A DNA stretch of 53,116 bases from Thalassotalea sp. PP2-459 (GTDB taxonomy: Bacteria > Pseudomonadota > Gammaproteobacteria > Enterobacterales > Alteromonadaceae), in NCBI RefSeq assembly GCF_001913705.1, contig NZ_MKQD01000053.1:1-53116 (forward strand), read 5' to 3'. Positions 4,431 to 52,924 of this stretch are shown piece by piece. Within the stretch, counting starts at the first letter, position 1, and each line of letters opens with the position of its first letter. The notes under the pieces are model-generated. The model was not told the origin of the DNA. It worked only from the letters and a program-made list of their open reading frames with translations, and ran no database searches. Both the position numbers and the translations under genes were made by a program.

Positions 4431-4458
4431 GACCTTGTAAGACATGTCTTACAAGGTC
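4431..4458. promoter_or_regulatory. GacA/UvrY-type upstream activating box for csrB-like RNA 1
   Basis: A perfect 28-bp palindrome whose core TGTAAGACATGTCTTACA (4436-4453) is an exact match to the GacA/UvrY consensus TGTAAG-N6-CTTACA, known to activate rsm/csr RNA genes in Pseudomonas and enterics. Its centre is about 176 bp before the predicted start of the GGA-rich RNA at 4621, matching the far-upstream position typical of csrB-type promoters. No T-run follows, so it is not a terminator. Confidence 0.8.
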
Positions 4459-4608
4459 GTGAGATATTGAGCTATTTACCGTAGTTAAGTGGAAATAAAT
4501 TTTCATTACTTATTGTTATAAAAAGACTTTTTAAATTAATACTTATTTTACATATACTTTACAAAATTTTTTATGTGAATAGATTAATGAAAAATAACTG
4601 TGTCAGCG

Positions 4609-4614
4609 TATTAT
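4609..4614 (+). promoter_or_regulatory. -10 box of csrB-like RNA 1
   Basis: TATTAT ending 7 nt before 4621, where the conserved TGTCAGGAAGACA start hairpin begins. There is no good -35 at 17 bp, in keeping with an activator-dependent promoter. Confidence 0.5.
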
Positions 4615-4620
4615 TAATCA

Positions 4621-4912
4621 TGTCAGGAAGACATTGACTAGGAAGGTCAAGAGCATAGCGCTCTCAGGGAGATACCCTAGGATGGGGTTATTGCAGGCCA
4701 AATGGACTTGTATTAAGGATGAACGCTGAAACACGGATAGTTAAGGACTTTGTTGTGGCTTAGGAAAGCTACTTAGAGGGAGCTAGAAGGACGTTAATGG
4801 AATTAACGAGGAAAGGCTAAGGATAGCTGTTTAAGGATGAAGCGGGATACTTGAATGCAGGATGCATACAGCTAGTTAGAGAAGTGCGGCTCATGATGAG
4901 CCGCATTTTTTC
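4621..4912 (+). ncRNA. csrB: CsrB-family regulatory RNA 1 (CsrA-sequestering)
   Basis: About 290 nt with some 17 GGA motifs, many displayed in hairpin loops: TGTC-AGGAA-GACA at the 5' end, TTGAC-TAGGAAG-GTCAA, CGTTAA-TGGAA-TTAACG and ATGC-AGGAT-GCAT. It ends at a strong terminator (GCGGCTC/GAGCCGC then T6). That is the signature of CsrB/RsmZ RNAs, which titrate the translational regulator CsrA (established for the family). An upstream GacA box, a -10 box at the right distance and a second similar RNA at 8156 support it. No open frame of note spans it. The symbol is by family; numbering is arbitrary. Confidence 0.88.
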
Positions 4913-4917
4913 TTTTT
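4885..4917 (+). terminator. Terminator of csrB-like RNA 1
   Basis: TGCGGCTC and GAGCCGCA form an 8-bp GC-rich stem around ATGAT, followed by TTTTTTCTTTTT. Confidence 0.9.
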
Positions 4918-5044
4918 ACTGCGGTAATTTCTTATAGCACATGCATGTTACCATTGAATGTGCTTAATCATATTAGCCCTAATACACTCATACCATTTTT
5001 AGTGTCATCAAAGATTAATACACCGACAGAAAAACGTCAGGGGT

Positions 5045-5530
5045 TTATTCATATTCAACAGCGTAGGTTTCTTTATAGCTATGTGAATAAAGTTCAAATA
5101 AATTACCGAATGGATCTTCTAAATACACCATTTTAGCAGGTTTACTATCATCTTCAGGGTGATAACGCATAATATCCATACGTACTTTACCACCAAAGGC
5201 TTTGGTGCGTTCAATCACACTTTCAAAGTCATCTGTTTGTAAACAAAAATGGAAAATACCAATACGAGAAAAGTCAACAGGGTGACGTTCTTGACGATCT
5301 TTCATTTCAAATAATTCTACACCAATACCATCTGTAGTAACTAAGTGAGCAATATTAAACCCTTTGAAACCTGGGCCAAAAACCGCTATACACATTCTAC
5401 CAATTGCTGTTTCACGTTCTTCAATGACTTGCGTATTATCCATAATTACTTTGAGGCCGAGTACCTTGGTATAAAACTCGACCGCTTTGTTCATATCACC
5501 AACCATGATGCCTATATGATTCATTTTCAT
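5045..5530 (-). CDS. VOC family (glyoxalase-fold) protein
   Basis: 161 aa with the vicinal-oxygen-chelate fold in two beta-alpha-beta halves. It begins MKMNHIGIMVGDMNKAVEFYTKVLGL. The four positions that usually bind metal look occupied: His in NHIG, Glu in GVELFEM, His in IFHFCLQ and Glu in NLFELYS, with a family-typical EDPFGN just before the last. The substrate cannot be told; members include glyoxalase I, dioxygenases and epimerases. The start at 5530 has GGGAGA six bases upstream. It is transcribed divergently from a LysR regulator, which may control it through the 120-bp shared spacer. Confidence 0.8.
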   Translation of the reverse strand: MKMNHIGIMVGDMNKAVEFYTKVLGLKVIMDNTQVIEERETAIGRMCIAVFGPGFKGFNIAHLVTTDGIGVELFEMKDRQERHPVDFSRIGIFHFCLQTDDFESVIERTKAFGGKVRMDIMRYHPEDDSKPAKMVYLEDPFGNLFELYSHSYKETYAVEYE

Positions 5531-5604
5531 TATCTTCTCCCGATCTATTTCTTCACTTATGATTTTGATGGGGTAAGTATATTGAGTTATTTTAATTAAC
5601 AAAA

Positions 5605-5637
5605 ATTATCATATATAATCAAAATAATAATATTTTG
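5605..5637. promoter_or_regulatory. Inverted repeats in the VOC/LysR divergent spacer
   Basis: Two AT-rich dyads lie side by side: ATTAT-N5-ATAAT (5605-5619) and CAAAAT-N6-ATTTTG (5620-5637). Paired dyads between a LysR gene and its divergent neighbour are typical LysR-binding layouts, so these are candidate sites. The AT-richness of the region weakens the case. Confidence 0.35.
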
Positions 5638-5653
5638 TTATTGTGGTGGCATT

Positions 5654-6577
5654 TTGTTAAACCCTAACTGGCTTAAAACGTTTGTTACGTTAATCGATAC
5701 TGGGCATTTCACTAAAGCAGCACAAAAGTTGTATATGACACAACCAGGTGTTAGCCAGCATATTAGAAAGCTTGAAGAAGCGTGTGAACATCAACTTATT
5801 CGTAGAGATAAGAAAAGTTTTGATATAACAGAACAAGGCCGTTTAATTTATGATTATGCAAAGCAACTTAAAAAGAATGAAGAACAGGTACTTGAACAGT
5901 TAACCTTTGATGACCCATATTCAGGTAAGTGCACATTGGCATGCTCAGGTGCGCTTGCGTTGATTTTATATCCAAAATTGTTAACGATTCAGTGCCGTTA
6001 TACTGCACTTATCATGCAATTAAAGGCAGCACCAAATGAACAGATTTTAACTGAAGTAGAAAATGGGGAAGTTGATCTTGGCTTAGTCACTGACGTGCAA
6101 TACCATAGGATACTTGATGTTCAAAAAGTTGGTCAAGAGCAGCTTTGCTTGGTGGTTCCGGCTGACGCTAATGCTGATGAGGAACCTGATACAGAAGATA
6201 TGTTAATGCGCCTAGGCTTAATTAGTCATCCTGATGCAACACATTATTTAACGCGATATTTTGCACAAAACGATCAACTTATTAAGGCTGATTTTAATGT
6301 AGAGAAAATACCTGTGACCGGTTATGTAAATCAAATTAGCCAGATATTGGCACCCGTTGCAAGGGGTCTAGGTTTTACTGTATTACCTAAAAGTGCAGTC
6401 GATAGTTTTAATGATCGTGAAAAACTACAAATATTTAAAACTAAAAAGCACGTTGTGGAAACACTATATATTGTGAAAAAGCGTGGTAGATCGTTACCTA
6501 AACGTTTTGGCTTAATAAAAACAATATTAGGGGAGCATTTTGAAGGAAATATTTTTGAAACAAAAAACGAACCATAA
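5654..6577 (+). CDS. LysR family transcriptional regulator
   Basis: 307 aa. The N-terminal winged helix-turn-helix is clear (FVTLIDTGHFTKAAQKLYMT, then QPGVSQHIRKLEEA), followed by a LysR-type effector-binding domain from about residue 90 (NGEVDLGLVTD, GLGFTVLPKSAV). It would bind DNA as a dimer or tetramer and respond to a small ligand that I cannot name. The frame starts with TTG at 5654; no ATG gives a full HTH. It is divergent from the VOC gene, the usual arrangement of a LysR regulator and its target. Confidence 0.85.
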   Translation: MLNPNWLKTFVTLIDTGHFTKAAQKLYMTQPGVSQHIRKLEEACEHQLIRRDKKSFDITEQGRLIYDYAKQLKKNEEQVLEQLTFDDPYSGKCTLACSGALALILYPKLLTIQCRYTALIMQLKAAPNEQILTEVENGEVDLGLVTDVQYHRILDVQKVGQEQLCLVVPADANADEEPDTEDMLMRLGLISHPDATHYLTRYFAQNDQLIKADFNVEKIPVTGYVNQISQILAPVARGLGFTVLPKSAVDSFNDREKLQIFKTKKHVVETLYIVKKRGRSLPKRFGLIKTILGEHFEGNIFETKNEP

Positions 6578-6607
6578 AAGTTGTGGTATTTGCATAGGTA
6601 AAGCCAA

Positions 6608-6659
6608 CAAAACAACCTTGTGAATGGTGGCTAAAATGATCAATCACAGGGTTGTTTTG
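6608..6659. terminator. Long hairpin between convergent genes
   Basis: CAAAACAACCTTGTGA (6608-6623) and TCACAGGGTTGTTTTG (6644-6659) pair over 16 bp with one G-T pair and a 20-nt loop. It lies between the convergent LysR and membrane-protein genes and may end both transcripts, with the T-rich arm serving as U-tract. Confidence 0.55.
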
Positions 6660-6703
6660 CTATATTTGAGTTATTAATTAGCTTACAAAACAATAGCAAT
6701 GCA

Positions 6704-7801
6704 TTAAGGTAACAATTTTGCGTATTCGTTACTTTTGCCTATTATTGCTTGGGTACCTTTTAATGAAAAGTCATATCCACACAAGGTAAAACTGCCTCGA
6801 TACACTATATTGTTTAAAATATCTGGGCTATCTAACGGTGAAAAATATGCAATATAGGTGTCTTGATTTTCTACTGTTACTTGTAACGGTCTGAATGTTT
6901 TTTGATTGTTAAAAGTTAAATGACTACAAGATTTATCGCCTTGACCGGTTTTAAGTTCCCAAACGATGTTTTGCTCAACAATATCGGCCTGCCAACTTAT
7001 AAATATTCCTTCGTACGCACTTAAACTTAATGTAAATTCATCAGGTAGTGAAATTGGGTTGAAGCGTTCAAGAACCTTGCTATTAAGCTTTGGTTGGGTA
7101 GAGATTAATGGCTCGGGTTCTTCTGGGTTTTTGTCAATGGATAATAGACTCGTTATGACAATACCTAAAATGACTATCGCAGCTAATGCGCTAAGCGTAT
7201 ATTTGCTGTTTTTACCGAGTAGCTTGGCTCTAATCAGTTCACCTAAATCACTTGTACTATTTGTTGGTTTAGCCTGATGCGCTTGATGTTGATAGTGGTT
7301 AGTTGCCAATTCTGCCTCTGCAATTAATGGCTGATTAACGCCACCTATATTGGGCTCAACACGACTCTGATTGGCTTGTACTTGCTTATCTTTATAGATA
7401 GATAAATCCACTGGGCCAGCATAACCAAGAATGTACTTCCTGCGGATGTTCTTTGCTTTACCTGGATATGTAAGCAACAAAGACGCTAATGCCAAAGGTA
7501 ACAAGATTAACCAATATAATGCGACAATATCGATAAAGGTCATTAAACATGCTGAAAATAAAAAGCTAACGGCAGGAACATACAACCATGGGCCATGAAG
7601 CTGTGCGTCAGCTAAGCGACGTTTACTTGAATAGAAAATAATAATACTACCAACAACTGCGCTAAACAGTTTTATAGCGATAAAAGTGTGAAACATTGCT
7701 GAAAAAAGTAAAAAACATATATGGCATGCAAGAATAATAACGCTAAAGCGAATTCTATTATCAACACCATGTTTACAAAAAAGAGATAAAAATAACGGCA
7801 C
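6704..7801 (-). CDS. Membrane protein with DUF805-like N terminus, unknown function
   Basis: 365 aa. Residues 1-120 hold about four membrane segments with a SSKRRLADAQLHGPWLYVP stretch that resembles the RRLHD-type motif of DUF805 proteins. A polar Gln/Asn-rich linker follows, then a further membrane segment (LSALAAIVILGIVITSLL, about 205-222) and a C-terminal domain of about 140 aa that would face the periplasm and contains two cysteines. The start is GTG at 7801 with GGAG five bases upstream. The N-terminal family link is tentative and the C-terminal part is unrecognised. It is the only gene between the LysR gene and the second Csr RNA. Confidence 0.6.
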   Translation of the reverse strand: MPLFLSLFCKHGVDNRIRFSVIILACHICFLLFSAMFHTFIAIKLFSAVVGSIIIFYSSKRRLADAQLHGPWLYVPAVSFLFSACLMTFIDIVALYWLILLPLALASLLLTYPGKAKNIRRKYILGYAGPVDLSIYKDKQVQANQSRVEPNIGGVNQPLIAEAELATNHYQHQAHQAKPTNSTSDLGELIRAKLLGKNSKYTLSALAAIVILGIVITSLLSIDKNPEEPEPLISTQPKLNSKVLERFNPISLPDEFTLSLSAYEGIFISWQADIVEQNIVWELKTGQGDKSCSHLTFNNQKTFRPLQVTVENQDTYIAYFSPLDSPDILNNIVYRGSFTLCGYDFSLKGTQAIIGKSNEYAKLLP

Positions 7802-7971
7802 AAACTCTCCAAATGAAACGCTTAAGAGGATTGAAATAAAGCTACCGCAAGGGTAATCATTTTTTACTTAAATGTCAGCGAAATTTTTACTATTCATATA
7901 GAAGTTTATTTTTTCGTTTAATCTTTGTTCGATATTGAAAACTTCAGTGATGCGCATTTGGAAGTTAAGCC

Positions 7972-7989
7972 TGTGAGATATTTCTTACG
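7972..7989. promoter_or_regulatory. GacA/UvrY-type box for csrB-like RNA 2
   Basis: TGTGAGATATTTCTTACG matches TGTAAG-N6-CTTACA at 10 of 12 fixed positions. Its centre is about 176 bp before the predicted RNA start at 8156, the same distance as the perfect box before the first Csr RNA. Confidence 0.7.
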
Positions 7990-8143
7990 ATGATGTCAGA
8001 TTTAGAGATGAAAATTGTAAGTTAGTTATTTTATTGTTATTTAAGTTATTGAATTTATTTGATTAAATAGTTTTTGTTTTAATGTGCCTATAATTTTCTG
8101 ACATTTTTTTATTTTCTTTGGTTTTCCATTTATACCGTTTTGC

Positions 8144-8149
8144 TAGAAT
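8144..8149 (+). promoter_or_regulatory. Extended -10 of csrB-like RNA 2
   Basis: TGC-TAGAAT gives an extended -10 box ending 7 nt before the conserved start hairpin at 8156. The -35 is poor (TTGGTT at 8118, 20-bp spacing), as expected for an activated promoter. Confidence 0.5.
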
Positions 8150-8155
8150 TAATCG

Positions 8156-8480
8156 TGTCAGGAAGACAATGCGAAAAGGAATTTTGTATTAGGGACGATG
8201 TAGTAATAATTGGTTATGGATAATCAAATAACTGTTATGGCTCAGTTTAAAAAAGGAAAGCAAACGGAAAATAAACAAAGGATGTTACTCAAATAATAGT
8301 AGCAGGATGCTAATAAGGATAACGTTTCAACAGGATGTTGATACAGGGAACAACTATTATTTGTACGAAGGAGCGTTTGTAAAATAAGTATGGACACCCG
8401 TCAGGAAGACACTGGGCAATAGTTCAGGTACAGGACGTACCGGAGCATAGAGAAAAAGCGACATTATGTCGCTTTTTCTT
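8156..8480 (+). ncRNA. csrB: CsrB-family regulatory RNA 2 (CsrA-sequestering)
   Basis: About 325 nt with some 16 GGA motifs, several in loops of short hairpins: TGTC-AGGAA-GACA at the 5' end, AGC-AGGAT-GCT, CAAC-AGGAT-GTTG, GTC-AGGAA-GAC and GTAC-AGGAC-GTAC near the 3' end. The first 13 nt are identical to RNA 1 and a CGTCAGGAAGACACTG copy recurs at about 8399. It ends in a strong terminator. By family knowledge it would sequester CsrA and act redundantly with RNA 1, as multiple Csr RNAs do in Vibrio. Outside the hairpin motifs the two RNAs differ greatly in sequence. There is no significant open frame. Confidence 0.87.
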
Positions 8481-8483
8481 TTT
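8453..8483 (+). terminator. Terminator of csrB-like RNA 2
   Basis: AAAAAGCGACAT and ATGTCGCTTTTT form a 12-bp stem followed by CTTTTT. The A-run also makes it a possible terminator from the other strand. Confidence 0.9.
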
Positions 8484-8500
8484 GGTGTTATGTCAAATCC

Positions 8501-8549: not shown

Positions 8550-8849
8550 CTAAATACGATGCGCGGGCGTTATGATGTTTTCTAGCTTTAAATTCGCCAT
8601 GGATAATACGCCGGTATACGTAGACTCTCCATCACCACTAAACTCAAAATCAAATACGCATTGCCAATAAGGCCCGTATCTTTTTGAAAATGAGAGTTTA
8701 GTAGACCGCCTAGCCACAGATATAAATTGTAAACCTTCCTGTTGGCAATAGCGATCTACATGCTTTTTGGCGGTTTCAGACACTTTACGTTGAAAAATAA
8801 AGAACCAAAAAATTAGAAAAATTAAAATGATAATGTAAAAATCGCCCAT
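8550..8849 (-). CDS. DUF3301 domain-containing membrane-anchored protein
   Basis: 99 aa: one N-terminal membrane anchor (YIIILIFLIFWFFIF), then a short soluble domain with HVDRYCQQEGLQF and a YGPYWQCVFDFEFSGDGE-type core ending in a GVLSM..L strand. This matches DUF3301 in length and layout; the function is unknown. It lies 8 bp behind the DUF3549 gene and both are probably co-transcribed. The DUF3549-DUF3301 pair next to truC is a common arrangement in marine gammaproteobacteria, as I recall. Confidence 0.75.
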   Translation of the reverse strand: MGDFYIIILIFLIFWFFIFQRKVSETAKKHVDRYCQQEGLQFISVARRSTKLSFSKRYGPYWQCVFDFEFSGDGESTYTGVLSMANLKLENIITPAHRI

Positions 8850-8857
8850 GATGTTCC

Positions 8858-9868
8858 TTAATTAAACAAGGTGCCAATTGCTTTTGCAAGCGCAGGGCTA
8901 CGTTCGGTATCCCGCATACATTGGAAGAGATAAGGGCGAACACTCGGGATCGCAACTAAATCTTTAAATAGCGCGGCAAACATATCTGGGGCTTTTCGCA
9001 CTAAGGTTTCTAAAAAAACCAGACAACGGTTTTTATCAGCAAGTATTTGCCAACATCTACCAGCTAAAATGACAAGCATTTCAGGGGTAAGTGTTTCATC
9101 AGCTAACATCTGATCAACATAGTCAACAACGAATGGGTGTTCGGCACTTGTGGCTAAACATCTAAACATTGATTGTTGTGTTATCGCATTTTCAGTGTTT
9201 TTTAAGCGCTCAATAACGGCTTGAATCACCTTTAAAGGTAAAGTGATGTTTTCAAGTGCGCTACACATTGGTTGCAATACGTCATTTGGCAACTGAGGTA
9301 AAGCTTCAATAAGAAGTTCTTGATGATTATCGTGATTAAAGCGTACAGCAAAGTCAGTAATACCTTGCGCACCTATTTGCTGCCAATTTTGCCAATTCTG
9401 CTCTGATAAGTATGTGACAACCCCTTGGTAGTACTTGCTTGCAGGCTGTTTTAGTTCATCGGTGATAAAACTATTAAGCATGGCAAGTTTGTATTGGCTT
9501 GGGGTAAAAATATAGGGGTTGTTTTTAAGTAGCTCTTCTTGTTTTTCTGTTGGATTTACTGATAAATCAGTACCTAAAGCTTCAACAATGATGGCAATAA
9601 AATGATTTCTAGCCCCTTGGTTAATCAATCCACGCTCATCAAGTGGTAATTTGATAAACCATAAGTACGGGCTTGCTGATTTTTGTTGCCAAAAACATAC
9701 AGCAAAGTGAGCATGTCCTTGAATAGGCGTAGGGTGCGGTAATTGATTGTGTTCGAGCTTTTCGAAGAGCTCTTTACTTAGTTTCTCTACTCGGCGTCCT
9801 AAGTCATAGATGCGGTATTGGCATTGGGATAAAGTGAGTAATTCGGTGATTGTTGCAATGGTGCTCAT
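8858..9868 (-). CDS. DUF3549 family protein
   Basis: 336 aa, soluble, without signal peptide, mostly helical. It starts MSTIATITELLTLSQCQYRIYDLGRRVEKL and has a characteristic PYLWFIKLPLDERGLI segment near residue 75, followed by HEAT-like helical repeats (about 170-330). This matches the DUF3549 family found beside truC in Shewanella and Vibrio relatives; no biochemical role is known to me. It is divergent from truC with 75 bp between and is followed closely by DUF3301. Confidence 0.8.
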   Translation of the reverse strand: MSTIATITELLTLSQCQYRIYDLGRRVEKLSKELFEKLEHNQLPHPTPIQGHAHFAVCFWQQKSASPYLWFIKLPLDERGLINQGARNHFIAIIVEALGTDLSVNPTEKQEELLKNNPYIFTPSQYKLAMLNSFITDELKQPASKYYQGVVTYLSEQNWQNWQQIGAQGITDFAVRFNHDNHQELLIEALPQLPNDVLQPMCSALENITLPLKVIQAVIERLKNTENAITQQSMFRCLATSAEHPFVVDYVDQMLADETLTPEMLVILAGRCWQILADKNRCLVFLETLVRKAPDMFAALFKDLVAIPSVRPYLFQCMRDTERSPALAKAIGTLFN

Positions 9869-9943: not shown

Positions 9944-10696
9944 TTGTCTGCGATTATTACTGAAAAACCAGAATTGACAATATTATATCAAGATCAGCAT
10001 CTTGTAGCGATTGATAAACCAGCAGGTTTGTTTGTTCACCGAAGCTTTCTAGATAAAGACGAAAAATACTTTGCGTTGCAGTTATTAAGAGATCATTTAG
10101 GCCAATATGTTTACCCTGTTCACCGGCTAGATAAACCAACATCAGGCGTGCTGTTGTTTGCACTTTCAGAACATGTAGCCCGAGATATAAATAGTGCCTT
10201 TCAAGAAAAACAAATGCACAAAACCTATTATGCGTTAACCCGTGGACATCTTGAAGGAGAAGGGCGAATAGAACATCCTATCAAAATAAAGTTAGACAAA
10301 ATTGGCGATAAGTTTGTTAACAAAGATCAAGAAGCGAAAGATGCTATTACAGATTATCAAAGTGTTGCAACAGCAACGTTACCAATACCGTTAGGAAAGT
10401 ATTCAAGTGTGCGATATTCATTGATTAAATTATCTCCTCAAACTGGTAGACGTCATCAAATACGTAGACATTTAGCGCATTTAAGGCACCCGATAATTGG
10501 TGATGTGAATTATGGCGACAATAAACAAAACCCATTTTTTTATCAGCATTTTGGTGTTAAGCGTTTAATGTTGCATGCTCAATCGTTGTCATTTGTTCAT
10601 CCGATATTAAAACGGGAAATTACTATCGAGGCTGAATTTGATGAACAATGGTTAAAGGTGTTTCACACCTTAGGCTGGTCACTGTCAGTGATATAA
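9944..10696 (+). CDS. truC: tRNA pseudouridine(65) synthase TruC
   Basis: 250 aa of the RluA/TruC pseudouridine synthase family. The catalytic motif HRLDKPTSG places the nucleophile-type aspartate at D63, preceded by the ADKPAGLFVH-like VAIDKPAGLFVH block. GRRHQIRRHLAHLRHPIIGD near residue 170 is the usual substrate-binding segment. TruC modifies uridine 65 in tRNA(Ile1) and tRNA(Asp). It lacks an S4 domain, as expected for TruC. The start is TTG at 9944 with AGGTGG seven bases upstream. It converges with a lipoprotein gene one base after its stop. Confidence 0.88.
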   Translation: MSAIITEKPELTILYQDQHLVAIDKPAGLFVHRSFLDKDEKYFALQLLRDHLGQYVYPVHRLDKPTSGVLLFALSEHVARDINSAFQEKQMHKTYYALTRGHLEGEGRIEHPIKIKLDKIGDKFVNKDQEAKDAITDYQSVATATLPIPLGKYSSVRYSLIKLSPQTGRRHQIRRHLAHLRHPIIGDVNYGDNKQNPFFYQHFGVKRLMLHAQSLSFVHPILKREITIEAEFDEQWLKVFHTLGWSLSVI

Positions 10697-52511: not shown

Positions 52512-52588
52512 GGAGTGGTAGTTCAGTTGGTTAGAATACCGGCCTGTCACGCCGGGGGTCGCGGGTTCGAGTCCCGTCCACTCCGCCA
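52512..52588 (+). tRNA. tRNA-Asp (GTC), copy 1
   Basis: 77 nt with encoded CCA. Acceptor GGAGTGG/CCACTCC, anticodon arm CCGGC-CTGTCAC-GCCGG with anticodon GTC, T arm GCGGG-TTCGAGT-CCCGT. Close to E. coli tRNA-Asp. First of four identical copies. Confidence 0.97.
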
Positions 52589-52612
52589 ACTCTTCCTAAA
52601 TGTTATCTCTGC

Positions 52613-52689
52613 GGAGTGGTAGTTCAGTTGGTTAGAATACCGGCCTGTCACGCCGGGGGTCGCGGGTTCGAGTCCCGTCCACTCCGCCA
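52613..52689 (+). tRNA. tRNA-Asp (GTC), copy 2
   Basis: Identical to copy 1 over 77 nt. The 24-nt spacer before it differs from the other spacers. Confidence 0.97.
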
Positions 52690-52728
52690 ATAGATAATGA
52701 AAAACAAGTAATAGAATTGAGACAATGC

Positions 52729-52805
52729 GGAGTGGTAGTTCAGTTGGTTAGAATACCGGCCTGTCACGCCGGGGGTCGCGGGTTCGAGTCCCGTCCACTC
52801 CGCCA
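52729..52805 (+). tRNA. tRNA-Asp (GTC), copy 3
   Basis: Identical to copy 1; spacer before it 39 nt. Confidence 0.97.
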
Positions 52806-52847
52806 ATGTTTCATAAGGGTCGCCTTATAAAATACGTTCCCCTGTGC

Positions 52848-52924
52848 GGAGTGGTAGTTCAGTTGGTTAGAATACCGGCCTGTCACGCCGGGGGTCGCGG
52901 GTTCGAGTCCCGTCCACTCCGCCA
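52848..52924 (+). tRNA. tRNA-Asp (GTC), copy 4
   Basis: Identical to copy 1; spacer before it 42 nt. A weak hairpin (ACGAGA/TCTCGT, 52995-53013) follows 70 bp later without a T-run and may end the transcript. Confidence 0.97.

Follow-up and report, generated by a model that had tools for sequence, protein, structure and literature searches.

A putative tandem pair of CsrB-type RNAs beside truC in Thalassotalea sp. PP2-459

A 53,116-nucleotide (nt) stretch of DNA from Thalassotalea sp. PP2-459 (contig NZ_MKQD01000053.1), analysed in full and hereafter called the window, contains two GGA-rich intergenic segments on the same strand, RNA1 and RNA2. We read them as a tandem of CsrB-type RNAs at the csrB locus next to truC, both activated by UvrY and both titrating CsrA, a reading to which we assign a probability of about 0.92. 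A preliminary description of the same DNA had proposed their CsrB-family identity, which is now well supported by UvrY boxes, the truC neighbour, covarying GGA hairpins and the presence in the genome of csrA, uvrY and a barA candidate. The pair is best explained as corresponding, in Colwellia/Thalassotalea, to csrB1/csrB2 of Shewanella and as older than the genus. On this reading, the Shewanella arrangement also occurs in Colwellia, Thalassotalea and related bacteria, and it is tied to the csrB-truC neighbourhood of E. coli.

We infer that both RNAs are transcribed, depend on UvrY and bind CsrA. In the mechanism that we propose, BarA would phosphorylate UvrY, and phosphorylated UvrY would turn on both RNAs by binding, in each case, a box about 185 nt before the start. 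Each RNA (around 290-330 nt) would present 16-17 GGA sites, many of them in hairpin loops, and the two would sequester CsrA dimers from mRNAs.

Motifs, structure and promoters of the two RNAs

The elements of the pair are listed below with the evidence for each.

4621-4912, plus strand: RNA1, CsrB-type RNA with 17 GGA (GGA density, fold, local hairpins, orthologs, covariation)
8156-8483, plus strand: RNA2, CsrB-type RNA with 16 GGA (GGA density, fold, local hairpins, orthologs, covariation)
4436-4453, plus strand: UvrY/GacA box of RNA1, TGTAAGACATGTCTTACA, perfect (pattern scan of window and genome)
4458-4467, plus strand: downstream half-box of RNA1, CGTGAGATAT (position conserved across 83 promoters; E. 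coli counterpart)
4609-4614, plus strand: likely -10 element of RNA1, TATTAT (promoter scan, itself at chance level)
4621-4633, plus strand: 5′ hairpin of RNA1, TGTCAGGAAGACA (stem invariant in 12 of 12 aligned copies)
4871-4878, plus strand: conserved linker of RNA1, GCTAGTTA (conservation among RNA1-profile copies)
4879-4911, plus strand: terminator of RNA1 (terminator scan)
7972-7989, plus strand: UvrY/GacA box of RNA2, TGTGAGATATTTCTTACG, two mismatches (pattern scan)
7994-8003, plus strand: downstream half-box of RNA2, TGTCAGATTT, degenerate (promoter comparison)
8144-8149, plus strand: likely -10 element of RNA2, TAGAAT (sequence; absent from the promoter scan's output)
8400-8410, plus strand: second, internal copy in RNA2 of the core of the 5′ hairpin sequence (sequence, alignment)
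8449-8481, plus strand: terminator of RNA2 (terminator scan)

RNA1 and RNA2 are the two most GGA-rich 300-nt segments on either strand of the whole 53 kb, where the mean is 1.8 motifs per segment and the next best have 11 and 10. Dinucleotide shuffles equal the GGA count once in 1000 for RNA1 and never in 1000 for RNA2, and the counts of AGGA and ANGGA are equalled in none of 1000 for either, and chance GGA richness was rejected on these shuffles. A coding reading was also rejected: no stop-free stretch within either segment exceeds 52 codons, and the one of that length is on the opposite strand.

That many GGA motifs occupy small hairpin loops, as the preliminary description stated, holds for local stems. 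With stems of at least 5 base pairs (bp) and loops of 4-9 nt, 8 of the 17 motifs of RNA1 and 7 of the 16 of RNA2 lie in a loop. No shuffle out of 1000 equals these counts, and among the 623 GGAs elsewhere in the window the share is 13% (binomial p = 0.0007 and 0.003). The contrast to the window is weak with a 4-bp stem cut (p = 0.03 and 0.05). In the global fold, the summed probability of GGA in hairpin loops is 3.7 of 17 for RNA1 and 7.4 of 16 for RNA2. Both RNAs fold better than every shuffle (RNA1, z = -4.4, 0 of 200; RNA2, z = -3.7, 0 of 100).

Both also open with the same 13 nt, TGTCAGGAAGACA, which form a small hairpin with GGA in the loop and occur at only these two places in the whole genome. 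As a separate observation, four contigs of G077 (C2, C3, C5 and C19) carry TGTCAGGAAGACA at most 56 nt from one end, perhaps as an unrelated repeat; the one such contig that was fetched (L023) is without a GGA cluster. At their 3′ ends, RNA1 and RNA2 have strong terminators of 15 pairs each, identified by a scan that returned 4 terminator-like sites in total compared to 2.3 expected by chance. Each RNA thus combines the marks of the CsrB/RsmB type, namely GGA motifs in excess of composition, a far-upstream UvrY/GacA box and a 3′ intrinsic terminator.

The UvrY/GacA boxes, which were missing from the preliminary description, begin upstream of the two RNAs by 185 nt (RNA1) and 184 nt (RNA2). The box of RNA1 is the sole perfect TGTAAG-N6-CTTACA in the 4.08 Mb genome. 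The likely -10 elements of both RNAs end 7 nt ahead of the common start. Among 113 distinct GGA clusters from related loci, 83 have an acceptable UvrY box, and the distance from box to 5′ hairpin is 184-188 nt in 51 of the 55 clusters whose hairpin can be placed. A half-box reading about (T/C)GTAAGATAT follows 4-5 nt past the UvrY box, its strongest positions G, T and G reaching 0.89, 0.89 and 0.92 across the 83 promoters, which come from related genomes and are hence non-independent.

The box scan also served in a search for a third CsrB-type RNA. Its 63 matches (at most 1 mismatch to TGTNAG-N6-CTTACA) correspond to 53 places. Within 0.7-1.5 kb of the 50 that fall outside the window, the GGA count is at most 7 per 200 nt, compared to 15 in RNA1. 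Genome searches with RF00018 and RF00084 gave no other candidate apart from two short RF00084 fragments, and we rejected a third copy, with the limit that an RNA with a poorer box would escape a box-based search.

Conservation of structure was assessed in hand-picked alignments of 12 RNA1 copies and 9 RNA2 copies. The predicted helices keep 97.4% (RNA1) and 95.0% (RNA2) of cells paired, and 20 and 30 cells, respectively, are changed on both sides, a level that none of 500 shuffles attains and that disappears when the helix partners are slid. Further pair types are not unusually numerous, since 64 of 500 shuffles for RNA1 and 189 of 500 for RNA2 reach as many. Since the structures derive from the same alignments, these controls favour the predicted structures. 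Covarying stems with a GGA loop include helix 2 of RNA1 and helices 5 and 6 of RNA2. GGA motifs are therefore found in conserved hairpin loops of both RNAs, for RNA1 only partly in the global fold.

The genome encodes the partners of such RNAs. There is one CsrA, and a UvrY that shares 69% identity with its E. coli counterpart across 215 residues. The BarA candidate, identified by best match only, is 44% identical over 780 residues (E = 1e-199 compared to 1e-72 for the next kinase). A CsrD-like GGDEF-EAL protein (G000 C77:25519-26787, L239) shows 30% identity to E. coli CsrD (E = 1.4e-62), a far better match than any other GGDEF-EAL protein of the genome. We leave this counterpart uncertain because no mreB was found within the 4.3 kb examined around it.

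The locus in relatives and in known systems

The pair adjoins genes for DUF3301, DUF3549 and truC, and the three genes reported earlier between the RNAs are all present.

5045-5602, minus strand: glyoxalase/VOC gene (open reading frame as listed), later insertion (family search, locus comparison)
5654-6577, plus strand: LysR-type regulator gene, later insertion (family search, locus comparison)
6704-7801, minus strand: membrane-protein gene without a matching Pfam or NCBIfam family, older resident of the locus (presence in other loci)
8550-8849, minus strand: DUF3301 gene, syntenic marker (family search, locus comparison)
8858-9868, minus strand: DUF3549 gene, syntenic marker (family search)
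9944-10696, plus strand: truC (protein comparison)

We compared 61 loci around DUF3549, namely the window and 60 regions hand-picked from 130 other genomes of the GTDB family with a DUF3549 match, and defined a GGA cluster as at least 9 GGA within 200 nt. Two or more same-strand clusters lie beside DUF3549 in 20 loci and one in another 20, counts for which some contigs end early. Of the 60 loci other than the window, 33 contain the membrane-protein gene; it separates the clusters in 16 of the 20 two-cluster loci, among which the window is counted. The VOC and LysR genes lie between the clusters in only 3 of the 61, the window genome and two close relatives. They are a later insertion beside an older resident membrane-protein gene, and this insertion accounts for the 3.2 kb spacing of RNA1 and RNA2.

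We also scanned 80 named loci, which overlap the 61-locus set so that the counts are not additive. The Colwellia/Thalassotalea-like loci among them number 45 (L095-L139); two clusters are present in 12 and one in 18, that of L133 being doubtful (9 GGA, no box). Two clusters flank DUF3549 in 15 of 16 Shewanella loci, the remaining one, on a short contig, having a single cluster. Ferrimonas has two clusters in two of three loci and four in the third, where just one of the four has a box. No cluster was found in 16 loci of Psychromonas, Motilimonas and Algicola. In at least G109, G135, G038 and G027 there is none beside DUF3549 and clusters occur elsewhere in the genome. These patterns suggest the tandem pair as an old state from which copies were later lost.

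Two other arrangements are recorded here as side observations. G038 C2 (L010) carries a tandem pair of long CsrB-type clusters with 26 and 35 GGA that is not beside DUF3549, and L073 8638-10429 (oriented L139 6638-8429) holds two unusually long GGA clusters, one of 479 nt (30 GGA) and one of 556 nt (29 GGA).

The preliminary description regarded two CsrB RNAs in one locus as unexpected. Separate loci are indeed the rule reported for E. coli and Vibrio (PMC6262261), but not for Shewanella, as the 15 loci above show. In S. oneidensis, csrB1 and csrB2 share one locus with a UvrY box each, are both transcribed, and drop by a factor of more than 100 when uvrY or barA is missing; a single transposase gene separates them in MR-1 and they are adjacent in S. 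putrefaciens CN-32 (PMC3171408). With csrB1/csrB2 already described, the surprise is resolved. As in the window, two CsrB-type RNAs on the same strand accompany DUF3549, the nearer cluster ending 0.5-1.3 kb from that gene in the 16 fetched Shewanella loci (S. oneidensis MR-1 is not among them). In contrast, the genes between the RNAs differ, and the Shewanella RNAs are beyond the reach of our RNA1 and RNA2 profiles (best E = 0.73), so that the agreement is one of position alone.

The csrB gene of E. coli likewise lies close to truC, with only yqcC between and in the same direction as truC, and it has a UvrY box 191 nt upstream, the same half-box (already noted in PMC4682653) and a terminator. 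Unlike the window, E. coli has one RNA at truC, and it scores 380 bits with RF00018 compared to 31.6 for RNA2. Three CsrA-binding small RNAs of Pseudoalteromonas fuliginea, a member of a related marine genus, are Pf1, Pf2 and Pf3 and contain 9-25 GGA; Pf3 has a partial match in Thalassotalea sp. LPB0316, and the paper's own search reports no homologs of Pf1 and Pf2 outside Pseudoalteromonas (PMC11882849). Pf2 and Pf3 flank different genes, and we liken the three to our pair by their description only. The CsrA-type sponge RNAs rsmX-1 and rsmX-2 of Pseudomonas brassicacearum are under GacS/GacA and were doubled by duplication; unlike RNA1 and RNA2, they are 110 nt long and belong to another family (PMC7911923). 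A partial search of the csrB literature on Colwellia, Thalassotalea and Alteromonadales, with subscription journals mostly outside it, found no description of this Colwelliaceae locus.

Roles and age of RNA1 and RNA2

The 3′ part of RNA1 is its best conserved region, with 87-90% column identity compared to 57-71% in the first 200 columns. Here AAGCTAGTTA (CAGCTAGTTA in the window) forms a near-invariant unpaired linker that joins the last GGA hairpin to the terminator. Of the 32 copies found with the RNA1 profile, 25 have its core GCTAGTTA unchanged; RNA2 of the window and E. coli csrB both lack this core. At the same place, E. coli CsrB has an unpaired segment that is reported to be an RNase E site, needed for decay and shielded by CsrA (PMC5027483). 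By analogy, we propose that the linker may set RNA1 turnover; alternatively, it could be a base-pairing seed. The linker is possibly new and may bear directly on why two copies persist. It is conceivable, if rather doubtful, that the pair is more than a set of redundant sponges, with RNA1 decay or base-pairing separately controlled and the two copies kept for different control instead of dose.

The conserved linker also raises the possibility that RNA1 is a processed or base-pairing RNA, in which case only one of the pair would work as a CsrA sponge and the other would be decaying or repurposed. Fewer RNA1 GGAs in loops of the global fold fit such a division, as do the degenerate box of RNA2 and the empty RNA2 slot in some relatives that retain RNA1 (L101, L108 and L131, for example). 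Nevertheless, RNA1 retains 17 GGA and covarying hairpins, and its box is perfect; RNA2 retains GGA-loop hairpins with compensatory changes. We consider a single working sponge unlikely, and two CsrA-titrating RNAs remain our preferred reading.

The preliminary description explained the pair by local duplication followed by strong divergence of everything except the hairpin units. As a recent event, with a CsrB gene copied 3 kb away in this lineage and all but its hairpins diverging fast, this would account for the shared strand and locus, the common 13-nt start and the similar promoter layout. Local copying does occur: in G101/L109 (L055 9613-10477; oriented L109 7613-8477), two RNA1-type copies lie around 290 nt apart and the RNA2 slot is empty, a close tandem that is a secondary local duplication.

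For RNA1 and RNA2 themselves, the comparisons point the other way. At E ≤ 1e-3, an RNA1 profile built from this genus detects 32 copies spread over 31 of the 61 loci. The RNA2 profile detects 12 places in the same set of loci, two of them matches of just some 30 nt at the terminator. Neither profile matches the partner RNA in the window, and each RNA has orthologs in other genera. In 8 of 8 genomes tested, out of 23 having two box-bearing copies, RNA1 does not score best against the RNA2 of its own genome. Because of these separate orthologs and the pairwise result, RNA1 and RNA2 are taken to be separate old lineages whose split predates the genus; the Shewanella layout also speaks against a recent origin.

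A tree of 53 RNA-plus-promoter rows, which excludes Shewanella, Ferrimonas and the distant genomes G018, G064 and G117, agrees in rejecting a recent copy. Its deepest split is weak (19/54) and long branches meet there, so we restrict its use to groups near the window. The R1 and R2 labels of the tree denote distance to DUF3549, and the G021 copy at 9227, labelled R1, groups with RNA2. The order of the slots has exceptions, since an RNA1-type copy adjoins DUF3301 in two Pseudocolwellia and one Colwellia metagenome-assembled genome, where no membrane-protein gene was found. Taken as recent, the duplication is thus quite improbable; in an ancient form it is a plausible, unproved origin of the two RNAs.

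Rfam searches and points against the CsrB reading

Several results weigh against two UvrY-activated CsrB-type RNAs. The preliminary description named an Rfam covariance search as a check, and neither RNA reaches a gathering score. RF00018 (CsrB), run on the genome, finds RNA2 only, at 31.6 bits against a cut-off of 71, and leaves RNA1 unmatched; such sub-cut-off matches also occur in 8 of 14 control genomes. RF00084 (CsrC) gives 23.7 bits over 8297-8491 (RNA2) in the window against a cut-off of 61, and its genome search matches neither RNA, finding elsewhere only two fragments of 26-27 nt (E = 0.06 and 1.6). The box of RNA2 has two mismatches, and the 63 one-mismatch boxes of the genome, compared to 48 for the reversed pattern, are mostly chance. 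The promoter scan of the region is at chance level (19 sites, 18.9 expected), and the global-fold value of RNA1 is low. Finally, no cluster lies beside DUF3549 in 21 of the 61 loci, nor in 15 of the 45 named Colwellia/Thalassotalea-like loci.

The Rfam result says little on function, and the two RNAs fall outside RF00018 as drawn. Three pair-bearing Shewanella loci and three Colwellia/Thalassotalea-like loci have no match at the Rfam cut-offs either, and a Ferrimonas RNA that occupies the RNA2 slot scores 86 bits, above the CsrB cut-off. The combination of UvrY box and GGA density therefore detects CsrB-type RNAs that Rfam misses. Other weak Rfam matches (SpF25, L20_leader, microRNAs) were dismissed as terminator or chance. 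That the segments are non-functional purine-rich DNA with chance GGA runs and terminators would fit the Rfam scores below the cut-offs, but the shuffle tests, the conserved position with boxes at a fixed distance and the covariation make it extremely improbable.

Elsewhere in the window, positions 52512-52924 hold four tandem tRNA-Asp (GTC) genes with identical scores.

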